DNA of 64,000 nucleotides from a virus. This document shows, piece by piece, positions 384 to 40,365 of this stretch. The position numbers were made by a program, and so were the translations under genes. Under the pieces are notes generated by a model. The model saw only the letters and a program-made list of their open reading frames with translations. It had not been told where the DNA came from and searched no databases. The stretch spans positions 1 through 64,000 of IMG/VR virus record IMGVR_UViG_3300032294_001887. One strand, given 5' to 3'. Each line of letters opens with the position of its first letter. Position 1 is the first letter of the stretch.

Positions 384-1631
384 ATGAAAATATTCGTTCA
401 GATAGCATCTTACAGAGACCCTCAGTTGGTTCCCACTATTAAAGACATGTTGGCAAATGCCAAAAAACCAAAAAATCTTGTAATAGGTATAGCAAGACAA
501 TTTAGCCCTGAAGACGGATTCGATAATTTAGATGAATTTAGAAATGATAAAAGATTTAGAATATTAGATATTCCATATCAAGACGCTAAAGGAGTGTGTT
601 GGGCAAGACATCAAGTTCAACAATTATATGGTGGAGAAGAGTATACCTTACAAATAGATTCTCACATGAGATTCGTGAAGGATTGGGACGACATTCTAAT
701 TAAAATGATAAAAGGGTTACAAAAAGATGGGTATAAAAAACCATTACTTACAGGATATGTTTCTTCATTTGACCCCGATAATGACCCAGCAGGAAGAGCT
801 CAAGATGCTTGGAGAATGGTATTTGATAGATTTATTCCTGAAGGTGCGGTTTTCTTTTTACCTGAAACAATTCCGGGTTGGAGAGAAATGACGAAACCTA
901 TTACAGCTAGATTTTATTCGGCTCACTTCTGTTTCACTTTAGGTCAATTTTCACATGAAGTTCAACACAACCCTGAATATTATTTCCACGGAGAAGAAAT
1001 TTCAATTGCCGCTCGAGCGTATACTTGGGGTTATGATTTATTTCATCCACACATTCCGGTTGTTTACCATGAATATACTCGTAAGGGTAGAACAAAACAA
1101 TGGGATGACGATAAAACTTGGAGCCAGAAAAATAATTTGTCACATTTAACCAATAGAAAGTTATTTGGAATGGATGGTGAGACACAAGAAGGTCATGACG
1201 GACCTTATGGTTTCGGTTCGGTTAGAACTTTAAGAGATTATGAAAAATATGCCGGAATTCTTTTTGGAAAAAGGTCAGTACAAAAAGAGACTTTAGATAA
1301 AAAGTATCCACCAAATACCTATAATTTTGAAACGGAAGAAGAATGGATTAATAGTTTTTCTCAAATTTTTAAACATTGTATTGATATTAGTTTTAGCCAA
1401 ATACCTGAAATTGATTATGATTTTTGGGCGGTAGCGTTTCATAAAGAAAATGGTGAGACTTTATTTAGAAAAGATGTTAATAAAGATGAGATTACCATGT
1501 TAAAAAATGATAAAGACGGATATTGTAAAATTTGGAGGGAATTTTTAACCACAGAAAAACCATCTTATTGGGTTGTTTGGCCACATTCTGAAAGTAAAGG
1601 TTGGTGTGATAAAATAGAAGGAAAATTATAA
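384..1631 (+). CDS. Glycosyltransferase, GlcNAc-transferase (Skp1 GnT-like) family
   Basis: The 415-aa protein opens with MKIFVQIASYRDPQLVPTI, the characteristic N-terminus of the GlcNAc (PF11397) glycosyltransferases related to Skp1 hydroxyproline GlcNAc-transferase. The metal/nucleotide-sugar motif appears as LQIDSHMRF near residue 92, the DxH variant usual for this family in place of DxD. Residues after about 290 (beyond the FGMDGE and GFGSVRTLRDYEKYAG segments) form a C-terminal extension. No signal peptide or membrane segment is visible, so a cytoplasmic enzyme is likely. It is the first of five closely packed glycan-type genes. The acceptor is unknown and could be a virion protein or host glycan. 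Confidence 0.8.
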   Translation: MKIFVQIASYRDPQLVPTIKDMLANAKKPKNLVIGIARQFSPEDGFDNLDEFRNDKRFRILDIPYQDAKGVCWARHQVQQLYGGEEYTLQIDSHMRFVKDWDDILIKMIKGLQKDGYKKPLLTGYVSSFDPDNDPAGRAQDAWRMVFDRFIPEGAVFFLPETIPGWREMTKPITARFYSAHFCFTLGQFSHEVQHNPEYYFHGEEISIAARAYTWGYDLFHPHIPVVYHEYTRKGRTKQWDDDKTWSQKNNLSHLTNRKLFGMDGETQEGHDGPYGFGSVRTLRDYEKYAGILFGKRSVQKETLDKKYPPNTYNFETEEEWINSFSQIFKHCIDISFSQIPEIDYDFWAVAFHKENGETLFRKDVNKDEITMLKNDKDGYCKIWREFLTTEKPSYWVVWPHSESKGWCDKIEGKL

Positions 1632-1632
1632 A

Positions 1633-2202
1633 ATGAATTTAGTTGTAGTTATATGTCACTATAATCGAAGTTTAGATTGGGTATCTTCTTTAAGATATCC
1701 TTATGTGATTTATAATAAAAATCCTAAAAATAACGATAAATTTGAAAATAATTTACCAAATGTTGGGTTTGACACTATTGTATATTTAAAATACATAATC
1801 GACAATTATAATAATTTACCTGATTATGTGTGTTTTTCACAGGACTATCCTTTTGACCATTGTCCTTCATTTGTCGATAAAATTAATAATTTTGATTTTC
1901 AATCTGAATTTTACCCTTTAGGTTGTACATATATTCGAGACGGAAGAGAGTTAGACCTCACAATCAATTACGCAAATCAAAACGGCATTTTTTATGAAGA
2001 ACCGATTAAATTTATTAGTTCGGCACAATGTATCGTTTCAAAAAAATTAATATTAAAAAATGAGGTGGATTATTATATTAAGGTAATGAACACCCTTCCA
2101 ACAACTCAAATTATAACACATACAAATTATTGTGTTGAGTACTTATGGCCGACAATATTAAACTTTAATAAAGAATTAAATCTATCGTTACATAATTGTT
2201 AA
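1633..2202 (+). CDS. DUF3431-like protein (glycan-associated)
   Basis: The 189-aa protein starts MNLVVVICHYNRSLDWV and contains NLPDYVCFSQDYPFDHCP. This pattern resembles DUF3431 proteins, which carry a conserved 'bNE/HYxEdLsWl...Y.iYnK' start followed by 'P.y.iFlqg.pf.H'. DUF3431 members often sit beside glycosyltransferases in polysaccharide loci. The gene starts one base after the stop of the preceding glycosyltransferase, so the two are probably co-transcribed and perhaps translationally coupled. The catalytic role is not established. The alternative is a small, divergent GT-A-like transferase. Confidence 0.6.
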   Translation: MNLVVVICHYNRSLDWVSSLRYPYVIYNKNPKNNDKFENNLPNVGFDTIVYLKYIIDNYNNLPDYVCFSQDYPFDHCPSFVDKINNFDFQSEFYPLGCTYIRDGRELDLTINYANQNGIFYEEPIKFISSAQCIVSKKLILKNEVDYYIKVMNTLPTTQIITHTNYCVEYLWPTILNFNKELNLSLHNC

Positions 2203-2218
2203 ATAAAAATTAAAATAT

Positions 2219-3037
2219 ATGAAAAAAGCATTACTTGGACTATCAAATAACATATCCAACAATATCAATAAAATTAAAGTTTGGTCTAAAAGTTTTAGAG
2301 AACATTCTGATGGGGAAGTAATTTTACTTTGTGCGAATTCAAACGAACATGAAATTAATATGTGTCAAGAACTAGGTATTATCACAATACCAGTGTCAAT
2401 CGACGACACTTATCACATTAACCATAAAAGACTTGGAAGTACCTTGGAATTCTTAAAAACAACAGATATTGATTTGTTTTTAATTACGGATGTTTTTGAC
2501 GTTGTATTTCAATCTGACCCATTTATTAAAATGGATTTAAATTATGATATATTTGTAGGTTCCGAAGGGTTAAAACTATCCCAAGAACCATGGAATGTAG
2601 ATGTTATTAATAAAGTGTTTCCTGATTATTTTGGTAAATGTTTAGACCAAGATATTATTTGTTCAGGTGTTATTGGAGGTAAAAGAGAATCTTTAATTAA
2701 ACTATATGATAATTTATATTCGATGTGTGAAAATAGTTCAAATGGCCATAACATAAAAGACCAAGCGGCGTTGATAATATCTATATTTAATAATGAAATT
2801 GAAAATTTAAAAATATTTGAAGTAACGGAAGGATGGACATTACATTGCGCTGTTGCTGGACCAACTCAGTTTTTTGATAGTTGGGGATTTAGAAATAGTT
2901 TAATTAATAGATATGGTGGGATTGCCGAACTGAATGAAGGAAAAATATTTACTCACACCGGATTAAAGTACGATATAGTACATCAATTTAATAGAATTCC
3001 CGAATGGAATGAACTTTTAACTAAAGAATATGAATAA
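2219..3037 (+). CDS. Putative glycosyltransferase (GT-A-like, DxxD motif)
   Basis: The 272-aa protein has an N-terminal Rossmann-like half (MKKALLGLSNNIS... VILLCANSNE) and then DIDLFLITDVFDVVFQSDPF around residues 80-99. This hydrophobic-D-x-x-D arrangement is where GT-A enzymes hold the metal and nucleotide-sugar. A later 'QDIICSGVIGGKRESL' segment resembles the acceptor-side 'NsGv.ig' loop of nucleotide-diphospho-sugar transferases. The stop overlaps the next start by 8 bp. Donor and acceptor sugars cannot be told from the sequence. Confidence 0.65.
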   Translation: MKKALLGLSNNISNNINKIKVWSKSFREHSDGEVILLCANSNEHEINMCQELGIITIPVSIDDTYHINHKRLGSTLEFLKTTDIDLFLITDVFDVVFQSDPFIKMDLNYDIFVGSEGLKLSQEPWNVDVINKVFPDYFGKCLDQDIICSGVIGGKRESLIKLYDNLYSMCENSSNGHNIKDQAALIISIFNNEIENLKIFEVTEGWTLHCAVAGPTQFFDSWGFRNSLINRYGGIAELNEGKIFTHTGLKYDIVHQFNRIPEWNELLTKEYE

Positions 3038-3785
3038 TATACATTGTGTTTGTACAACACCAAATATTTACCCAAGTTATAGTCACAACTGGGAAAATTT
3101 TCCTAAGGATAAAAGAAAATTAACTTGGGTGACCGATATAACAAATGACCCGTCTTTTAATCTTGGTTTTAATTTTACTGAACAAGATATTCGAAAAGAG
3201 TTTAATTTTGATACTGAAGTGAGTAAAAGACACTATTGGAATTGTCAGGGAAATAGAAATATTATTTGGTTTTATGCTCACTTACGGATGTTATATTTTT
3301 ATATTAAAAATCCAAATTATGATTTTTATTGGTTTTTTGATGATGACATTAAAATAAATAATTGGGATGAGTTTTTTATAAAAACTGACAAGGATGATTC
3401 GGATTTTTTATCATATTTTTGTTTTAAAAAAGATGGAGTTACTTCACAAATAAATGTCCCTGTTATTGACGGCAGAACATTCTCTAAAAATCTTTGGTTT
3501 GAAAGATTTCCGGGGGACGGAGATATTCTACCTGAAAATACAAAGGACATGTTTGGTTCATTTTTTCCAACAACAAGATTTTCAAACAAATCTTTATCAA
3601 AGTTATTGGAGATTCATAATGAAGGATTTCATGGGTACTCTGAAGGATTTGTCCCCACTATATTAAACAAATATGGATTTAAATTATCCTCATTAATAAA
3701 CCCGGATAATACTTCAAATTATTTTGACGTAAATGAAGTTGATATCCTACATAAACATATTAAAGTAAATTGGGAATGGATATAA
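3030..3785 (+). CDS. Putative glycosyltransferase with DDD motif
   Basis: This 251-aa protein contains NYDFYWFFDDDIKINNWDEF around residues 92-111. The hydrophobic strand ending in DDD resembles the metal site of fringe-like and GT-A transferases. A conserved-looking 'DGDILPENTKDMFGSFFPTTRF' region and 'HNEGFHGYSEGFVPTILNKYG' follow. The ATG lies inside the end of the preceding gene (8-bp overlap), which indicates a tight operon. No signal peptide or membrane helix is visible. The function is inferred from the motif and the neighbouring genes, so it is less certain than the first gene of the cluster. Confidence 0.55.
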   Translation: MNNIHCVCTTPNIYPSYSHNWENFPKDKRKLTWVTDITNDPSFNLGFNFTEQDIRKEFNFDTEVSKRHYWNCQGNRNIIWFYAHLRMLYFYIKNPNYDFYWFFDDDIKINNWDEFFIKTDKDDSDFLSYFCFKKDGVTSQINVPVIDGRTFSKNLWFERFPGDGDILPENTKDMFGSFFPTTRFSNKSLSKLLEIHNEGFHGYSEGFVPTILNKYGFKLSSLINPDNTSNYFDVNEVDILHKHIKVNWEWI

Positions 3786-4573
3786 ATAACCCTGTTATAG
3801 TAATGGCTCTATATGATATTGGTAGAGAAAATTGGAATAATTTTAGAATGTCGTACCATACGTATGGTTGGTGGATGAGAAATACATTATCATTAGATTC
3901 TAATATTGTAATTTACACGGAACCCAAATTTGTTAATGAATTAACAAATTATAGGAAAGAATTTGACCCTAATCTTGAAAAAACCATTTTTGTTGAAAAT
4001 GAATTAAGTGATTTACCAACATATCAAAAATACTACGATTCTTTATCAAATTTAATGTTTTCTGATAATTTTAAATCCAAAGTAAGTTTTCCGGATGTCC
4101 CTGAAATGTGTCAACCTTTATATAACATAATAATGTTTAATAAAGTTTTTTTCCTTAAAGACACCATAGAAAAAAAATATTTTAATAACGATATGGTTAT
4201 TTGGGCAGATGCTGGAGGTTTAAGGGAAGATATAAATTCGTATAAAAACAATAAATGGCCTAATATTTCAAAAATTAAATCTTTAGACCCAAATAAAATA
4301 ACATTTTTTAGTCACAACCAAGACTTTACTATTAACAATAAAGAATTTCATAGTTTATCTCAAATTAGGAATATTCAAGGAACCTCATTTCTGTTACCAT
4401 CACATTTGATTGATAATCTATTAGATTTGGTGATTAACACAATTGATGAATCAATTAATGATGGGTATATTGGTAGCGATGAGAAAATATTTGACATTTG
4501 TTATACTAAAGAAAAAAATTTATTTCACTTAATAAAATCTGACTGGAGAGAATATTTTAATATATTATTGTAA
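3776..4573 (+). CDS. HtrL/YibB-family protein, putative glycosyltransferase
   Basis: The start is taken at ATG 3776 rather than the in-frame TTG at 3770, giving 265 aa and a 10-bp overlap with the preceding gene. The N-terminus PVIVMALYDIGRENWNNF followed by YTEPKFV matches the HtrL_YibB family (PF09612), in which the opening 'vTalyDIgRe.w..f' strand is diagnostic. DMVIWADAGGLRE (about residues 140-152) fits the family's metal-site region. E. coli YibB lies in the lipopolysaccharide core locus, and related proteins are treated as glycosyltransferase-like. This is the last gene of the glycan cluster; a promoter-like motif follows for the next gene. Confidence 0.75.
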   Translation: MDINNPVIVMALYDIGRENWNNFRMSYHTYGWWMRNTLSLDSNIVIYTEPKFVNELTNYRKEFDPNLEKTIFVENELSDLPTYQKYYDSLSNLMFSDNFKSKVSFPDVPEMCQPLYNIIMFNKVFFLKDTIEKKYFNNDMVIWADAGGLREDINSYKNNKWPNISKIKSLDPNKITFFSHNQDFTINNKEFHSLSQIRNIQGTSFLLPSHLIDNLLDLVINTIDESINDGYIGSDEKIFDICYTKEKNLFHLIKSDWREYFNILL

Positions 4574-7797: not shown

Positions 7798-7824
7798 AAA
7801 CCCGACTTTTACTAAAAACTGATA

Positions 7825-7832
7825 TATTTATA
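7825..7832 (+). promoter_or_regulatory. TATTTATA motif before the first RHH gene
   Basis: TATTTATA ends three bases before ATG 7836. If it is a -10-type promoter element, the transcript would be leaderless or begin inside the gene. It could equally be an operator for the RHH protein. Confidence 0.4.
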
Positions 7833-7835
7833 GAT

Positions 7836-7991
7836 ATGGGAAGACCTAAAAAAGAAGAAACCGATAAAAAAATTAAAATTGGTATAACAATAGACCGAGA
7901 ACTTTATAGTTTAATTAAAAAAGACAACTTAAAACCTTCCCGTATCATTGAAAAATTGGTAAGAGAATATTATGGAAACAAAGATTTGTAG
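7836..7991 (+). CDS. Small ribbon-helix-helix-like protein, cassette 1
   Basis: The 51-aa protein begins MGRPKKEETDKKIKIGITID and continues through a predicted strand (KIGITID) and two short helices (RELYSLIKKD; KPSRIIEKLVREYY). This is the size and layout of Arc/CopG/MetJ-type RHH DNA-binding proteins. It overlaps the HNH endonuclease gene by 20 bp in another frame. A near-twin (MGRKKKEEIEKKVKIGVSVD) precedes the second HNH gene at 39589, which argues strongly that this short frame is a real gene. A repressor of its own cassette, or a DNA-targeting partner of the endonuclease, is an inference. Confidence 0.75.
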   Translation: MGRPKKEETDKKIKIGITIDRELYSLIKKDNLKPSRIIEKLVREYYGNKDL

Positions 7992-8625
7992 TAAATGTAG
8001 GGAAGATAAAAATATTTGTAATTTTTATAAAAATAGAAATGAGTGTAAGGAGTGTAAAAAGAAAAAATCTATGTTAGATTATAATTCTAATAAAGAAAAG
8101 TATAGAACATCCCAATTATTATATAGAGAAAGTAATAAGGAAACAATAAATGAGAAAAACCGAATTTATTATTATAATAATCACACCATATTAAGAGAAA
8201 AACAAAAAAAATATAGGGATGAAAATATCGAAAAAGAGAAGGAAAGAAATAAATCATGGAGAATTAATAATAAAAATTTAATTAATAATTATAGAGATAG
8301 TAGGAGAAAAAATGAGCCATTATATAAGATAACAGAAAATATTAGGAGAAGAATCAATAAATTCTTTAAATCGAAAAATATTGAGAAAAATAATAAAACA
8401 TTTGATATTGTAGGGTGTTCTCCCGAATTTCTTAAAGAATATATTGAAAATAAATTTACCGAAGGGATGTCTTGGGTTTTAATGGGTAAACATATTCATA
8501 TAGACCATATTATACCTTTATCTTCTGCTAAGACAAAAGAAGATATTTATAAACTTTGCCACTACACAAATTTACAACCTTTATGGGCTGAGGATAACTT
8601 AAAAAAAAGTTCTAAAATTATCTAA
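7972..8625 (+). CDS. HNH homing-type endonuclease, cassette 1
   Basis: The 217-aa protein has an N-terminal zinc-ribbon pattern (METKICSKC, then CKEC), a long Lys/Asn/Glu-rich helical middle, and a C-terminal HNH domain: FDIVGCSPEFLKEYIE, then HIDHIIPLSSAKT, HYTNLQPLWAEDN. The HIDH pair, the NLQ and the final N supply the catalytic and metal residues expected for HNH. It is a free-standing enzyme between intact genes, like T4 intergenic homing endonucleases. The C-terminal half is highly similar to the HNH protein at 39731-40348. The start lies inside the RHH gene. The stop overlaps the convergent minus-strand gene by 4 bp. Confidence 0.9.
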   Translation: METKICSKCREDKNICNFYKNRNECKECKKKKSMLDYNSNKEKYRTSQLLYRESNKETINEKNRIYYYNNHTILREKQKKYRDENIEKEKERNKSWRINNKNLINNYRDSRRKNEPLYKITENIRRRINKFFKSKNIEKNNKTFDIVGCSPEFLKEYIENKFTEGMSWVLMGKHIHIDHIIPLSSAKTKEDIYKLCHYTNLQPLWAEDNLKKSSKII

Positions 8626-8957
8626 GAACTTTTTAATCCGTCCGAACTGAGGATATACCAGTTACCTGCACAAAATCTAAATTCGATACAAGCGTATTTG
8701 TCGGCAACTACTTCATCAAATTCCTCATCTATTTTACCCACATCGGGTTTTATTGTGACATCGGTCATTGATTTAACTACGATGTGGTCTGTAGTTGTTG
8801 AGTCCAATATTACTACCGATTTCGCAACACTTCTAACCACTATACACCCTTCTCCATTTGTTTTATATTCACTCTCGGATATTACTGCAACCTCAGAGGT
8901 TTCAATAAATTCTCCGTTAATTAATCTTTTTGAAGGTATTGTTCTTAAAATTCCCAT
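8622..8957 (-). CDS. Small predicted virion protein, unknown function
   Basis: This 111-aa protein is rich in Val, Thr, Asp and Ser with an alternating beta pattern (VVRSVAKSVVILDSTTTD, HIVVKSMTDVTIKPD). It ends in an aromatic segment, CIEFRFCAGNWYILSSDG. The composition resembles small head-decoration or fibre-tip beta domains, but no family was recognised. It starts 3 bases after the stop of the gp13-like neck gene on the same strand, so the two are probably co-transcribed from the TATTTATA motif at 10099-10106. The 3' end overlaps the HNH gene end-to-end by 4 bp. Confidence 0.7.
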   Translation of the reverse strand: MGILRTIPSKRLINGEFIETSEVAVISESEYKTNGEGCIVVRSVAKSVVILDSTTTDHIVVKSMTDVTIKPDVGKIDEEFDEVVADKYACIEFRFCAGNWYILSSDGLKSS

Positions 8958-10118: not shown

Positions 10119-11651
10119 CTATTGTATATTATATAACAAAGAATCTTTAGGAAAGACAAAATTACCTTTCACAATTTTTGGTTTTCTATTGAAAATTAAT
10201 ACATTTTTTCCTTTTTGGAAAATCATTAAATCTGTATTATAAATCTTAACACTTGCTGTCCCTTCCAAAGTAATCCCATCTTCAGATTCCACCATGTTTC
10301 TAAATGGTTTAATCTGTGCGGTATATTTTTGACCATCCTTGGTTAACTCTAAATCAATTCCTTGTATTGCATCTTTTTTACTACCCAACTCACCAACCAC
10401 CTGAACTTTGGCTTGTTTACCGAAAAATCTTTTAAGTATTGATGCAGTTATTTCTTCTCTTTTAGAGCCTGCCTTATCTTTTTCAGTTAAAGTTCTCAAT
10501 AAATTATGAAGAGTCGTACTATCTGTATCAAATATTCTATATTTGAAATAGTCAATTGTTTTAACAAATCTCTCAACTTCTTTCCTTTGTTCCGAAGGAG
10601 TTTTATCCATGAAATTAATAGGTTTTTTGCCCGGTATTGTTGCAATCACTTGATTCAAATCTTTTAATAAAATACAAAATGCAGTATAATTCGTATTCAA
10701 TTTATTAATTACTGACCTACCCGGACCTTCAAGATTATAAACGCCAGGTAATTGGTTATTTTCAAGCTTTGTAATATAGTTTTCGGAAAACACTTCTTTC
10801 ATGATTTTATTAATACCATTCATGTAAGTCCACTTAACATCCGAATTTACATTGAATAACATTCTGTAAAACTCATTCTCGGATTGAGAACACATTTCGG
10901 ACTTTCCCTCACTTAAAACTTGTTTCATTTTAGTTGATTCCGCCAATTTAGTTTCAATTTTCATTTCATACATCTTACTAACGAAATCCCAATTAACAAC
11001 TTTCCAAAAGTTTGTGATGTATTCATCTCTTTTATTTTTATACTTTAGGTAATATGCGTGTTCCCATAAGTCTAAACCTAGTAATGGGAATCCACCACCT
11101 TCGATTACATTCATTAATGGATTGTCTTGATTTGGAGTAGACATAATCTTTAAAGTATTTTTGGAAGTTAAAACCAACCATACCCATCCGGACCCGAAGC
11201 GTTCTTTGGCTTGTTTTTCAAATTCTTTTTTGAAATTACTAAAAGTTCCCCATTGTTTGGTTATTTTCTTATAAAGTTCACCATCCAATTTTTTTGGTTC
11301 AGGTGTCAACATATTCCAAAACAATGCGTGGTTAAATGCTCCACCGGCATTATTTCTAATGGTTTTGTCGAAACGGCTGATTGTTTTAATTATTTTTTCC
11401 AAATCTAAATCACCATATTTCTTTTTTGATAATGCGGCGTTTAATTTGTCTACATAACCTTTGTAATGTTTATTGTAGTGGAAGTTCATTGTCTCTGCGT
11501 CAATAAATGTCTTCAAGGCTGAATAGGCGTAAGGTAATTTTTCTATCCCTATTTTTTTCATTTCTGTAATCAACAACTCTTTTTCTTTTGTAACTTGTGA
11601 TTCAAGTATTTGTGACTCAAGTTGTTGGATTTTCTCTTGTGTTTTTTTCAT
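10119..11651 (-). CDS. Mn/Fe superoxide dismutase fused to a nuclease-like C-terminal region
   Basis: Residues about 38-232 of 510 form a complete Fe/Mn-type superoxide dismutase. Metal ligands are seen as H58 (NFHYNKHYKGYV), H108 (NNAGGAFNHALFW), D194 and H198 (LDLWEHAYYLKY). Gly104 four residues before H108 and Gln175 in STPNQDNPLM follow the manganese/cambialistic type rather than the iron type. FGSGWVWLVL and the VVNWDFV end are also standard. Residues 1-37 are a short charged helix. Residues 233-510 are unrelated. Within them a helix (REEITASILKRFFG), then GIDLEL with D433 and AQIKPF with Q446-x-K448 resemble a PD-(D/E)xK nuclease core with Gln in place of Glu. The SOD should dismutate superoxide; why it is joined to this domain is unknown. 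The promoter motif is at 11673. Confidence 0.88.
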   Translation of the reverse strand: MKKTQEKIQQLESQILESQVTKEKELLITEMKKIGIEKLPYAYSALKTFIDAETMNFHYNKHYKGYVDKLNAALSKKKYGDLDLEKIIKTISRFDKTIRNNAGGAFNHALFWNMLTPEPKKLDGELYKKITKQWGTFSNFKKEFEKQAKERFGSGWVWLVLTSKNTLKIMSTPNQDNPLMNVIEGGGFPLLGLDLWEHAYYLKYKNKRDEYITNFWKVVNWDFVSKMYEMKIETKLAESTKMKQVLSEGKSEMCSQSENEFYRMLFNVNSDVKWTYMNGINKIMKEVFSENYITKLENNQLPGVYNLEGPGRSVINKLNTNYTAFCILLKDLNQVIATIPGKKPINFMDKTPSEQRKEVERFVKTIDYFKYRIFDTDSTTLHNLLRTLTEKDKAGSKREEITASILKRFFGKQAKVQVVGELGSKKDAIQGIDLELTKDGQKYTAQIKPFRNMVESEDGITLEGTASVKIYNTDLMIFQKGKNVLIFNRKPKIVKGNFVFPKDSLLYNIQ

Positions 11652-34900: not shown

Positions 34901-36569
34901 TAATGAACTTATAAAGAAAACTAGTAACGTGGAATTACAACAACTAATTTACTCAATATGTTATGTTAATACGTTCCCTCAGAAAGGTGCTAAGTTTGAA
35001 GGGTATAACAACAATTATGCTAATATAACATTAACTAATGACTATGGGTATAGTGCGGGTGATTTCATACAAAAAAAATGTGCGTGCGTTAATATCTCAA
35101 ATTCAACTGGTAACCCAACATCACAACCAATTGCCATTTTTGAAACAATTGGTAAGTTTTTTGATTTTATGATTGCTAGATTAAGGGCAAATGTTAATAG
35201 AGTTTATGGTGAAACCAATATTGGTGTTCCTAAATATTATGTATGTTATTGGCCGGTATCAAAAATTTCGGAATCATATTACGATAGTCATTTGAGTGAA
35301 TATAGTGAATTAATAAAAAGATTTAATGCTTCTTTTGATGCTGCCAAAGAAGTTGGAATAAATGTTGCAAAACCTATAACACCAACCACCCCAACCACAA
35401 CACCAGTACCAAATAATTTAAATACAACCACAACGGTTGTTCCATCTTGTCCTTCACCTACCATAACATCATTCTCACCATTAACAGGTATTAGTGGAAC
35501 TATATTAACAATAGTTGGTAAAGATTTAGACCAAATAACGGGAGTTACAATTAATAATGTTACAACAAATAGTAACATAACGATTAATAATCCATTTAAT
35601 ATTAGTGTTGTAGTACCATTTAGTAATACACCGGTTCAACAACAAAATCCAATAATAGTTAGAGGAGTTAATGGAAATGCTACGAGTCAAAGTGGATTTA
35701 CATATAATCCAGCTCAGGTTACACCAGTCCCAAGTAATTCTACGAATACAAATGTACAACCACAACAATCCGGGCCTGTTACTTTAAATGCTCAGACACA
35801 AACATCTCCGGGTGGAGTCACTCAACAATTAACGGTTTCGGTTAACCCACAAGCTGCGGCATTAAACACATGGGTTTTAGAACAAAATGTCACAATGATT
35901 ATTTCTGTTTACAATAATTCCGTTGTTAACAATGTTACAACGCAAACATTAAATAGAACGGTAACAACAACGGTATCTAATTATGTTTCGGGTAATGTGT
36001 TCACCATGACTTATAATAATGTTGCAGATATGTTAGTTAATAACCCAATACCTCAATTCCAAACAGCACCTATTGAAGATGGTCAAACCGCTAATATTAA
36101 ATTTACGGTTACTGCGGTTCCTGTGGATAAAGTTGAAAACCCTCAAAATGTGTCACAAACATTTAATTTCGCATTTACACCAATATCCTCAACAACACAA
36201 ACAAAACCAGGTGCATTATTTAAAGTTTCCGAAACATATGGAGGAAATGTACCAAATTTTAATGGTAGTGATTACTACAATATTAAAAAACCTACTGGAG
36301 GATACATTACATACCAATTTACTTGTACAAAACTAATTTCTAAGGGAAAAGTTGAAGTATATTCAATACCTGACCTTGTTAAACAAAATATTACGATAAC
36401 CAATAACTCAGGCACAAAATACACAAATGTTATTGAATTTAATACTTTAGGAACATTCCAACTTTCGGTTGAGTACACATCAGAAGATTATGTGGGAACC
36501 AATACAACTTTATTAAGCTTTGGTAAACCAATTTCTGTATTTGCAACATCACCACCATTCACTTTATAA
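28977..36569 (+). CDS. Giant baseplate hub-like protein with C-terminal IPT/TIG domain
   Basis: This 2,530-aa protein is the largest in the window. Its N-terminus includes 'LLGITSISVRTNSSFVPSVS' and 'CPFYLTLKGYYGQAIRY', a beta-barrel-like pattern seen at the start of hub proteins. Near residues 1840-1900, 'YGCQVQSLGNALLQPTMYFN' and 'MFNGPYFITEVNHNITPGNF' match the hub element 'G.p.l.pG..v.v.......g.y.V..v.H.i..g.f.t.f.g.r'. This supports a gp27/gpD-like hub. Residues ~2160-2250 contain an IPT/TIG fold (PTITSFSPLTGISGTILTIV), and the last 270 residues are Ig-like and Thr-rich. No lysozyme or peptidase motif was found. The protein probably joins hub and surrounding wedge functions. Confidence 0.65.
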   Translation: MAGNLVGDNSGNILVEFDYNNIIVVDPNKTIDNLRNIRERLVDHENLVMFANLEAEVVPRTKLSVGGSPEDRNRTISVAKMNFLRPTEEKFLTTGYYDELTGKDTKNGLGVNQLQEQIIDPKDGTKPYSKMVVTDPGGTATDNGLLGITSISVRTNSSFVPSVSMTLEDIQGRALFQLGDNSPYSAFFNLPYCPFYLTLKGYYGQAIRYQLNLKTFNARFNTFSGNYLIELEFVGYKFNILNEISMGSLLATPHMYSKRFNISKSPTSPEGGSNKNIEAQSKSNAISKESTISSDNVTTELVTEKGYQKIIEVYSEYKAKGLISPDFPELTLTQLMNKLLTFEQSVIDRYTKVDVEPLTNIRAYNETLVNYFNEIYGNKDSWFNIYMNPNPIILNGSGQEVYVFKQEFINNPTKKEEAKTLLSGYTTEFNKLLADNPTLGISSQTPIKNSITYNTMVKNVIFSEIDLVKTTTSQTGVLQPTSEDIKRINELLTSAFTPSLEKEASNSKLETSVGNVVNPPIFYFSEFQTLLSKMEAESNKKLSEVETILTAGLAKKIQENIGFSPTVRNISAVIMASAEAFIRLLDDVHTNAWNVKYDPIRQLAILDNPSSAPGTDTVDNFKISETAQSSNQGLVNGKIPVYPWPQFFVETPDDKKGRFQLKYLADPSVVNITKGYLYEKWPEVEFVEEYMKGLTQKFNPPISQPPTDAQNTTNIINVNAIEYPSQGIAYVNKEEVKFFYEIWERQFLTSNYSGFIRGNSNQLNQLTNLIVSAETNNIVTGLGVSSPFLALKLRNYNLTSQDYPSFLSSISNQGTGRAYQDYIRDFYVTPYIRNLTSNSFNILSLTDLGREPQTSTKSQGLLQLVNNAPNEPLVIDTYPFTDPTWVSTNMANSTTNTKNFVYNTNRVLTVFEDRDVISNFNSVYDYSKNRPVTNFSYLKVSNPTNQITSIGLSGFYNIRKDPTFFIPTEGFVNYFSPSKNLSVETTTSMLNTPYFINAIQNGVYNWRRKDPHPYTQAAYLFINSLPLASLKEKYKTLDASSDLDYIATCFKKFGAIHKMPYAWVLKMGSIWHRYKTYKASNVDILDSVWKDFNYKENFDPIASADTKTYTFNFDGTNNITLQNTSNNINRIQTGFYPKVINDFNVFYNGYDLYSGYTNDEIQKSVDNGVKVYNFTDSNINIQSGTSYSNIQTWSVVIPNGIFSLTNVGSVCNPSNNTLSDTYYIAPSFGTQLNQVSVECISNNVQVCPFINNPSIYNGSVRLLWSAPNYGYFNNSEISKPQPDSYVNKIKTGSEQQSSFRLLMDKDYSNIEEIFSVFSKDILDKFEQEFLNFSKPVANIDLGPQVVVPIGVSPTDPNGLFKNFQYLFRNLMEVNSNNPSVTTAEYFKTIGEAQLTVFSNTIKSFLEYDVILKYGNPAQYNRRVMDSYLAQGGGNNPIVDPIVFNPYVRNSLPSKLNTTTLAASKSSNPQAWFELETQVGFSTITNLKYTDSGSYITDFFIDNDIEFTQNNVILLVPIIKMFATQKLYTPTLSRNEFKNRLQIYLNSTTEFQSNLLNLILSQVRGNLPDQQELPERVIQSSIDGQQSKVENYEVFKALNDKWVAGSDYTSKTLFEDVMFLDRASRNIGDTILVDIFDLKDTLSENSLNMEMSVFTFLSGILIKNKFNIMPLPAYVNFYNIQEVDGTTTAQADGSLEFADNMWGTFLNVDYRKSGPKMICFYAGMPSSYLALPKGNSRFRDDAFDLRRASDNPLIENQTNKKDWAVSNKCVGFNVDFGIRNQNIFTSLQVSMDSGKATSETIETQLNMVNQASGRNVATQNVGLYNLYKQRSYGCQVQSLGNALLQPTMYFNLRHVPMFNGPYFITEVNHNITPGNFETTFNGVRQGIYDLPSIDSFLQSVNQNLLTQIETIVKNRKDSVTGKAITNIDKSKYITQTANNTAAAQNSCIVNLQGTPYVTWADVQTSVSTTITPQEFANELIKKTSNVELQQLIYSICYVNTFPQKGAKFEGYNNNYANITLTNDYGYSAGDFIQKKCACVNISNSTGNPTSQPIAIFETIGKFFDFMIARLRANVNRVYGETNIGVPKYYVCYWPVSKISESYYDSHLSEYSELIKRFNASFDAAKEVGINVAKPITPTTPTTTPVPNNLNTTTTVVPSCPSPTITSFSPLTGISGTILTIVGKDLDQITGVTINNVTTNSNITINNPFNISVVVPFSNTPVQQQNPIIVRGVNGNATSQSGFTYNPAQVTPVPSNSTNTNVQPQQSGPVTLNAQTQTSPGGVTQQLTVSVNPQAAALNTWVLEQNVTMIISVYNNSVVNNVTTQTLNRTVTTTVSNYVSGNVFTMTYNNVADMLVNNPIPQFQTAPIEDGQTANIKFTVTAVPVDKVENPQNVSQTFNFAFTPISSTTQTKPGALFKVSETYGGNVPNFNGSDYYNIKKPTGGYITYQFTCTKLISKGKVEVYSIPDLVKQNITITNNSGTKYTNVIEFNTLGTFQLSVEYTSEDYVGTNTTLLSFGKPISVFATSPPFTL

Positions 36570-36579
36570 CATAACGATA

Positions 36580-36587
36580 TATTTATA
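36580..36587 (+). promoter_or_regulatory. TATTTATA motif upstream of the 74-aa gene
   Basis: It lies 15 bases before ATG 36603, within an alternating AT run. Confidence 0.5.
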
Positions 36588-36602
36588 TATAAAAATAATT
36601 TT

Positions 36603-36827
36603 ATGAATTTAAAAGCAACATTAGACAACTATCTTGGAAAATCGGTTAGATATTCTGAAGAGGACAATGGAGACGGAACTAAACAAGTTTGTGATTTAGA
36701 TACTGGTGATTGTTATGTGGTTAGAGAAAGAGACGGTCTGATTGAAAGAGCCGGACATCAAACAACTGCCAATAGAAGAGTTAGAGTTGAAACTTCAAGA
36801 GGAATTAAACAATTATTAAACGGATAA
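36603..36827 (+). CDS. Hypothetical 74-aa protein
   Basis: The short acidic-then-basic protein carries 'DNGDGTKQVCDLDTGDCYVV' (two Cys seven residues apart, six between) and ends in an Arg-rich stretch (RRVRVETSRGIKQLL). The CxxxxxxC spacing alone is too little for a zinc site. It has a candidate late promoter motif and sits five bases before the next gene, so the pair is likely co-expressed. The function is unknown. Confidence 0.65.
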   Translation: MNLKATLDNYLGKSVRYSEEDNGDGTKQVCDLDTGDCYVVRERDGLIERAGHQTTANRRVRVETSRGIKQLLNG

Positions 36828-39538: not shown

Positions 39539-39577
39539 AAAAAGTTGTAATTATTCTACTTTTATTATATTTGCAGA

Positions 39578-39585
39578 TATTTATT
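39578..39585 (+). promoter_or_regulatory. TATTTATT motif before the second RHH gene
   Basis: It ends three bases before ATG 39589, the same placement as before the first RHH gene. Confidence 0.4.
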
Positions 39586-39588
39586 AAT

Positions 39589-39741
39589 ATGGGAAGAAAG
39601 AAAAAAGAAGAAATTGAAAAAAAAGTTAAGATTGGAGTTTCGGTTGACCCCGAGCTTCCACAATACTTTAAAGACAAATCTATTAATCTATCTTCTCTTG
39701 TTAATAAGTTGTTAAAAGAATATATTAAAAATGGAAACTAA
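39589..39741 (+). CDS. Small ribbon-helix-helix-like protein, cassette 2
   Basis: The 50-aa protein MGRKKKEEIEKKVKIGVSVD continues PELPQYFKDKSINLSSLVNK and LLKEYI. It keeps the basic tail, single strand and two helices of its counterpart at 7836, with about half the residues identical by eye. It overlaps the HNH gene by 11 bp in a different frame. Conservation of this short frame in front of both endonuclease genes, while the DNA has diverged, is the best evidence that it is translated. A DNA-binding regulator is likely. Confidence 0.75.
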   Translation: MGRKKKEEIEKKVKIGVSVDPELPQYFKDKSINLSSLVNKLLKEYIKNGN

Positions 39742-40348
39742 AGTTTGTAGTAAATGTTCTGTTGATAAACCACTATTGAAATATAATGTATGTTCTAGAG
39801 TGAAAGATGGGAGGAAAGCTGAATGTAGAGAGTGTCAAAGACTTGGAACTAAAGAATATAAGTTTAAAAATAAGGAAAAAATAAAAGAATATAATTCTAA
39901 ATGGAATTCCGAAAACAAATCCTATTATCAAGAATATCGTAAAATATGGGAGGTTAAAAATTATGATAAAGTTTTAGAAAAAAGAAAAAGATTCAAAGAA
40001 AAAAATCCTAGTTATATTAACAATTATAATAAACAAAGGAAAAAAGAAGATATCTTATTCAGGCTTATATCTGATATGAGAAATTCTGTTAATCGATACC
40101 TGAAATATAGGTCAAAAAAAACTTTCGAAATCGTTGGATGTACTCCGGAATTTCTTAAGGAACATTTAGAAAAACAATTTGTTGATGGCATGACTTGGGA
40201 GAATAGGGGTGAATGGCATATTGACCACAAAATTCCATTATCTTCTGCGAAAACAGAAGAAGAACTTTACAAGTTGTGTCATTATACAAACCTTCAACCA
40301 TTATGGGCTGAAGAAAATTTGAAAAAAGGTAACAAAATTATTGTCTAA
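39731..40348 (+). CDS. HNH homing-type endonuclease, cassette 2
   Basis: The 205-aa protein has the same order as the one at 7972: zinc ribbon (METKVCSKC ... CREC), Lys-rich helical middle, 'FEIVGCTPEFLKEHLE', then HIDHKIPLSSAKTEEELY and HYTNLQPLWAEENLKK. The middle region has diverged much more than the two ends, as expected when the ends carry zinc-binding and catalysis and the middle contacts a specific target. It lies between intact uvsX and the RNase H gene, so it is an intergenic homing enzyme and not intron-borne. Confidence 0.9.
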   Translation: METKVCSKCSVDKPLLKYNVCSRVKDGRKAECRECQRLGTKEYKFKNKEKIKEYNSKWNSENKSYYQEYRKIWEVKNYDKVLEKRKRFKEKNPSYINNYNKQRKKEDILFRLISDMRNSVNRYLKYRSKKTFEIVGCTPEFLKEHLEKQFVDGMTWENRGEWHIDHKIPLSSAKTEEELYKLCHYTNLQPLWAEENLKKGNKIIV

Positions 40349-40365
40349 CCAATAAATGAAAAAAA

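Follow-up and report, generated by a model that had tools for sequence, protein, structure and literature searches.

Overlapping RHH and HNH nuclease genes as a putative two-gene homing cassette beside replication genes of an uncultured phage

Among gene drives, homing endonucleases are the simplest, and the way in which they spare their carriers from harm is a standing question. What is the role of a small, putatively DNA-binding gene that precedes and overlaps a homing-type nuclease gene, and does so twice in one viral genome? The window analyzed here, 64,000 nucleotides of the IMG/VR record IMGVR_UViG_3300032294_001887, carries two such pairs. In cassette B, an RHH gene at 7836..7991 (+), encoding 51 aa and class III-like, overlaps by 20 nt an HNH homing-endonuclease-like gene at 7972..8625 (+), whose 217-aa product contains a CxxC...CxxC zinc finger, 15-aa helical repeats, and an HNH domain. 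In cassette A, a class I RHH gene of 50 aa at 39589..39741 (+) overlaps by 11 nt an HNH homing-endonuclease-like gene of 205 aa at 39731..40348 (+). The two HNH copies share 43% identity (E 7e-56) and the two RHH copies 44% (E 3e-07), and no RHH+HNH copy beyond these two was found in the 74,767-bp uncultured virus record. Cassette B (7798..8622, +) extends from the stop of a family-B DNA polymerase gene (7797) to the stop of a convergent gene at 8622-8957 (-), and cassette A (39539..40365, +) is an insertion between a UvsX-like recombinase gene on its 5′ side and a 5′-3′ exonuclease gene on its 3′ side. The initial annotation had described a 51-aa RHH-like gene overlapping an HNH gene by 20 bp, a second pair after uvsX that is homologous in both genes and again overlapping, and the location of both directly after replication or recombination genes; the open reading frames match this description exactly. 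Of the phages with a name, Flavobacterium phage immuto is the closest by its UvsX (43%), and the host is therefore probably a member of Bacteroidota. A glycosyltransferase-like run (GlcNAc transferase, DUF3431, HtrL/YibB) at 384-4573 adjoins the polymerase gene.

Family searches and structure prediction both point to an RHH protein. Pfam CcdA, an RHH family, matched 35 of 57 RHH relatives, together with hits to BrnA, RHH_3, and CopG-type families; the match covers the DNA-binding half of CcdA (profile positions 1-37 of 71), and the RHH protein ends there. Its AlphaFold monomer model (pLDDT 81, pTM 0.43) comprises an extended N-terminal strand followed by two helices, and the top five PDB matches are all RHH proteins (CopG, CdbA, and Arc), with weak E-values of 4-7, which is not surprising for a query of 50 residues that makes up half of an intertwined dimer. 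Sequence searches of the PDB returned designed proteins and other low-complexity matches, with CcdA and 2kel at E 0.5-0.65. Conservation of the frame at the protein level, a check named beforehand, was confirmed by a dN/dS of ~0.09 across 72 and 19 distinct sequences, for codons 1-46, a stretch that ends ahead of most of the overlap; the gene is under strong purifying selection. Since the RHH+HNH pair also recurs in more than 100 distinct loci (the informative loci are all metagenomic contigs, and counts of distinct sequences do not equal independent events), the RHH frame is not a product of chance.

The larger protein matched phrog_1035 (endonuclease VII) at 1.1e-13 for the 217-aa copy and 9.5e-21 for the 205-aa copy. 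H163, D165, H166, N187, and N196, as well as the four zinc-finger cysteines, are invariant among 68 HNH relatives, and by sequence the catalytic residues of an HNH (beta-beta-alpha-metal) nuclease are intact; the Pfam HNH score lies below the Pfam cut-off. The model of a homologue of the 217-aa protein has a pLDDT of 87. The best sensible PDB match of the HNH protein was Hpy99I (probability 0.96, E ~0.9), and Foldseek with the full HNH model returned mostly autotaxin, which contains a nuclease-like domain, with poor E-values. The protein is laid out as a zinc finger, helices at an exact 15-residue spacing, and the HNH domain. The helical repeats lie at 39830-40055 and 8060-8310 in the window and vary in length among relatives; self-similarity of this linker is strongest at lags 15 and 30, and the proteins range from 179 to 294 aa. 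The repeats possibly form a DNA-reading ruler, and the zinc finger could add an autorepressor function of its own in the style of I-TevI, which the model proposed below does not require. HNH genes are frameshifted or broken in loci L037, L098, L122, and L186, with the RHH gene in front intact in L037, L098, and L122; these broken copies would represent the decay stage of the homing cycle. A search of 84,980 bacterial and archaeal genomes yielded no close HNH relative and three distant ones, none of them with a convincing RHH gene.

Comparison with empty sites in relatives, as the initial annotation had suggested, defined the ends of the cassette. In L254, the closest empty relative, a single nucleotide stands where the window has 824 nt, the polymerase and the downstream neighbor each being 97% identical to those of the window; the block absent from L254 consists of the promoter, the RHH gene, and the HNH gene, and nothing more. 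At the other site, the spacing between uvsX and the exonuclease gene is ~28 nt in the empty locus L188 versus 827 nt in the window. When the sites were sampled by their flanking genes, the uvsX site was represented by 50 distinct empty alleles, 8 alleles with RHH and nuclease, 5 with HNH alone, and 0 with RHH alone, the polymerase site by 57 empty and 4 filled alleles, and a third site, in divergent orientation to the gene that precedes the polymerase, was filled in 10 of 51 cases; related loci were the best 80 matches per query, and these frequencies are sample values. The cassette of L154 is 82-87% identical to that of the window, with flanking genes merely 53-57% identical. As in free-standing homing genes, presence and absence alternate at one site in close relatives (L254 versus the window; 50 empty versus 13 nuclease-bearing uvsX sites), with no intron or intein. 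At the level of sequence, these comparisons show a two-gene mobile unit with precise ends that occupies at least three places, namely after uvsX, after the DNA polymerase gene, and divergently upstream of the polymerase region. The earlier suggestion that the small protein is part of the mobile unit stands: empty sites lack both genes, and every RHH gene found was accompanied by a nuclease. The gap between uvsX and the exonuclease gene can also contain a C5-cytosine DNA methyltransferase-like gene, whether or not a nuclease cassette is present (L179 3620-4615, L244 4998-6005, and L139 3850-4863).

Within the unit, the two genes appear as separable modules. Among the matches listed, 123 distinct RHH genes were found, none of which stands alone: 120 precede an HNH gene, and 3 precede a gene for a NUMOD3 + TnsA-like nuclease, which they also overlap. 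This second nuclease family (zinc ribbon + NUMOD3 + TnsA-like PD-(D/E)XK) occurs at the site between uvsX and the exonuclease gene in L139 (2910-3806), L142 (3143-4039), and L383-L392, in most cases behind the same RHH gene; among these TnsA-type loci, the RHH gene is present in L386-L389 and absent in L390-L392. PADLOC gave no defence-system match except a weak one for the TnsA-like nuclease. Judging from these loci, the nuclease has been exchanged while the RHH gene stays, which argues that the RHH protein acts on DNA rather than on one nuclease. The constant pairing described earlier proved to be common but not constant, as several HNH genes lie directly behind uvsX without an RHH gene. RHH-less HNH genes are found at several positions of the HNH tree, with ~6 changes between the RHH-plus and RHH-less states, and the RHH gene is therefore dispensable, at least in the short term. 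In most RHH-less alleles the HNH gene starts 2 nt after the uvsX stop, and they look as if deletion at a short stretch of shared sequence had removed the promoter and the RHH gene. Apparently the RHH gene depends on the nuclease, and not vice versa. Within a site, the two genes recombine almost freely: the within-site correlation of RHH and HNH identity is 0.11, and L006 and L008 have HNH genes that are 97% identical and RHH genes that are 56% identical. The inspected relatives of the HNH gene in GenBank phages lack this RHH gene. A search of 50,697 GenBank phage records for relatives of the window RHH found none; the arrangement of RHH and nuclease seems to be absent from sequenced cultured phages, and this may explain how it escaped notice.

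A promoter-like element, ACTTTT-N14-TATTTAT, precedes the RHH gene in both cassette B (7805..7831, +) and cassette A (39558..39584, +). These are the two exact occurrences in the window (0.34 expected; 8 of 100 shuffles reach two), and the element is found before 93 of 99 distinct RHH copies, 4-5 nt from the RHH start, with a spacer of 14 in 89 of 94. The initial annotation had named the upstream TATTTAT region as a candidate for RHH binding. As an RHH-specific operator this motif was rejected: it forms the -10 box of a phage promoter, a close variant of which also occurs at 36561..36588 (+) before a 74-aa gene at 36603, at the head of the ssb-uvsX run, with a PWM score of 20.2 there versus 24.4 and 19.6 at the two cassettes. 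Close variants likewise precede a few non-cassette genes in relatives, and since the element also precedes non-cassette genes, we regard it as a phage promoter and not, by itself, as an RHH site.

The promoter -35 is overlaid by inverted repeats that differ by RHH class and not by site. The class I repeat, AAAGT-N12-ACTTT, was present in 42 of 77 cases versus 4% expected, the motifs having been picked by eye and then counted; 44 copies lie at most 90 nt before an RHH gene, compared with 2 elsewhere in 258 kb and 0 in 69 kb of empty sites. In cassette A it lies at ~39540-39563, with AAAAGT 12 nt upstream of ACTTTT. The class II repeat, TGTG-N6-CACA, is found at the polymerase site, and also at the uvsX site in L006, which has a class II RHH gene. 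For class III the repeat is AAAGT-N3-ACTTT, and in L369 its whole core is reversed, as would be expected if the protein reading it is symmetric. No class repeats were found around 58 empty uvsX sites, none is evident at the 36561 promoter, and the polymerase-site copy of the window has no clear repeat. In an unbiased inverted-repeat scan the enrichment was no more than modest, with 21% of class I reaching p<=0.05, and promoter and RHH gene, being adjacent, are co-inherited even without function. The RHH genes of the window belong to classes I and III, and all three classes (I, II, and III) are present on the contigs from which L040/L271 and L042/L304 come; L277, with two class III copies, is an exception. 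Differing RHH classes within one genome would presumably keep the switches from cross-talk.

The reading we lean towards is a homing cassette in which a separate autorepressor limits, in trans, a translationally coupled HNH endonuclease. A phage-type promoter, switched on at infection, would drive a leader-poor transcript that starts with the ~50-aa RHH gene. Because the HNH start lies inside the RHH 3′ end, we propose that the nuclease is translated at a low level by coupling to the RHH gene. RHH dimers would then shut this promoter by binding to the inverted repeats that overlie its -35, so that the nuclease would be made in a limited burst. The nuclease would then cut cassette-free alleles of the flanking replication or recombination genes, and the cassette would be copied in by recombination after cleavage. 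The steps of this model, from RHH binding to DNA and promoter shut-off to coupled translation, target cleavage, and homing, are inferred. The initial annotation had offered either an autorepressor or a targeting subunit; the former is supported by the class-specific promoter repeats and the nuclease exchange, and falls short of proof.

The targeting alternative, in which the RHH protein docks close to the homing site and brings in or positions the nuclease, appears unlikely. It draws on the observations that the RHH class tracks the site better than HNH does (same-/different-site identity 0.80/0.46 for RHH and 0.58/0.51 for HNH) and that the same RHH gene occurs at the same site with two unrelated nucleases. 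However, class II RHH genes are found at the uvsX site as well as at the polymerase site, the polymerase-site RHH gene of the window is class III-like whereas others there are class II, the repeats follow the class and sit at the promoter instead of around the 58 empty uvsX sites, and RHH-less nucleases persist at the same site.

It is still less probable that the small frame serves mainly as a translational leader feeding low-level re-initiation, with a protein that matters little. The overlap is indeed nearly invariant (present in 109 of 110 measured pairs, of 11, 20, or 23 nt in 106 of 110, and always in the same relative frame), RHH-less alleles would keep coupling through the HNH start 2 nt after the uvsX stop, and T4 homing genes overlap phage genes (PMC2988022). 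This reading is difficult to reconcile with the low dN/dS in RHH codons 1-46, the conserved predicted RHH fold, the class-specific promoter repeats, and the independent DNA-binding families that occupy the same position in another HNH lineage, described below.

A toxin-antitoxin-like pair, in which the RHH protein neutralizes the nuclease by direct contact, would fit the best-matching family, the Pfam CcdA antitoxin, and the placement of a small, overlapping gene first, as in toxin-antitoxin operons. We consider it very improbable, as the match stops at CcdA position 37 of 71 and the C-terminal toxin-binding region has no counterpart in the 50-aa protein, and as two unrelated nuclease families, a correlation of 0.11, and solo nucleases argue against a fixed cognate partner. 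A type II system such as CcdAB was accordingly rejected for want of its two defining features, the toxin-binding tail and the fixed partner. We give the least credence to the proposal that the RHH protein serves the phage by regulating resident promoters of this type, with the nuclease hitchhiking: such promoters do precede the 74-aa gene heading the ssb-uvsX run and a few other genes, but the RHH gene was never found without a nuclease, most related genomes have no RHH gene at these sites, and the 36561 promoter has no evident class repeat. The idea that nucleases insert next to an RHH gene native to the phage was rejected because no RHH-only allele occurred among ~130 distinct uvsX and polymerase loci.

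How does the autorepressor cassette relate to known systems? In predicted fold and in size, its RHH protein resembles Arc, CopG, the N-domain of CcdA, and SvtR, and RHH repressors of this type usually control the operon that encodes them by binding to inverted or tandem repeats; it differs from them in having a homing nuclease as partner and no toxin-binding tail, and its sequence is too distant for one family. T4 controls its homing genes through hairpins in the RNA, processing of transcripts, overlap with resident genes, or the nuclease as its own regulator: I-TevI represses its own late promoter by means of its DNA-binding domain, and the starts of segC, segF, mobA, and mobC lie 20, 11, 23, and 24 bp inside the preceding gene, which is thought to lower translation (PMC2988022). 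The proposed cassette would share with I-TevI, a GIY-YIG enzyme of an intron, the limitation of homing endonuclease expression by DNA binding over the promoter; here, however, the role of repressor would fall to a separate gene, the ~50-aa RHH gene in front of that for the nuclease; the latter is of HNH or TnsA-like type, and there is no intron. T4 mobA-E and phage HNH genes annotated as "endonuclease VII" (phrog_1035) likewise lie beside conserved nucleotide or replication genes and start within the preceding gene, but the overlapping frame in T4 is a resident phage gene, in contrast to the dedicated mobile RHH gene found here, which the inspected GenBank relatives lack. In Rhizobium phage 16-3, p099-p100 (XRE HTH + HNH) similarly consists of a small DNA-binding gene overlapping an HNH start, although the XRE fold is unrelated to RHH and this is a single case.

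A comparable arrangement was seen in another, distant HNH lineage, to which a 642-kb uncultured phage had led and of which 64 distinct loci were examined. About 12 of these have a ~50-aa RHH frame (L401, L411, L413, L421, L431, L438, L439, L442, L453, L454, L455, and L470) and 6 a ~48-aa MerR/IS607-like HTH frame (L410, L415, L422, L443, L460, and L472), directly upstream of the HNH gene and overlapping it or a few nucleotides away. The RHH proteins belong to several unrelated families, and L411, L421, L442, and L454 have two tandem RHH frames. Because overlaps in both frames and gaps of 2-5 nt occur in this lineage, a programmed RHH-HNH frameshift fusion is disfavored. We consider it possible, with rather less confidence than the autorepressor reading itself, that two-gene homing cassettes combining an interchangeable nuclease (HNH or TnsA-like) with an exchangeable small DNA-binding regulator (RHH families, MerR/IS607-type HTH, or XRE) form a widespread, repeatedly assembled selfish class in which homing control evolves as a module of its own. 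Our literature search found no paper describing a pair of RHH and homing endonuclease genes. If the autorepressor reading is true, a mobile, separable regulator that survives replacement of its nuclease would be a new and easily testable solution to homing control, and would account for a class of "hypothetical" 50-aa frames before phage nucleases.

Two further observations concern genes outside the cassettes. A further HNH family (CFKC...HLHHWSY) lies upstream of uvsX in L129/L130 (1152-1686) and L241 (2048-2582). In the window, the gene at 10119-11651 (-) encodes a 510-aa phage protein that begins with a complete Fe/Mn superoxide dismutase, its N domain matching Pfam at E 1.5e-23 and its C domain at 2.7e-40, and has ~280 further residues, which is unusual in a tailed phage.
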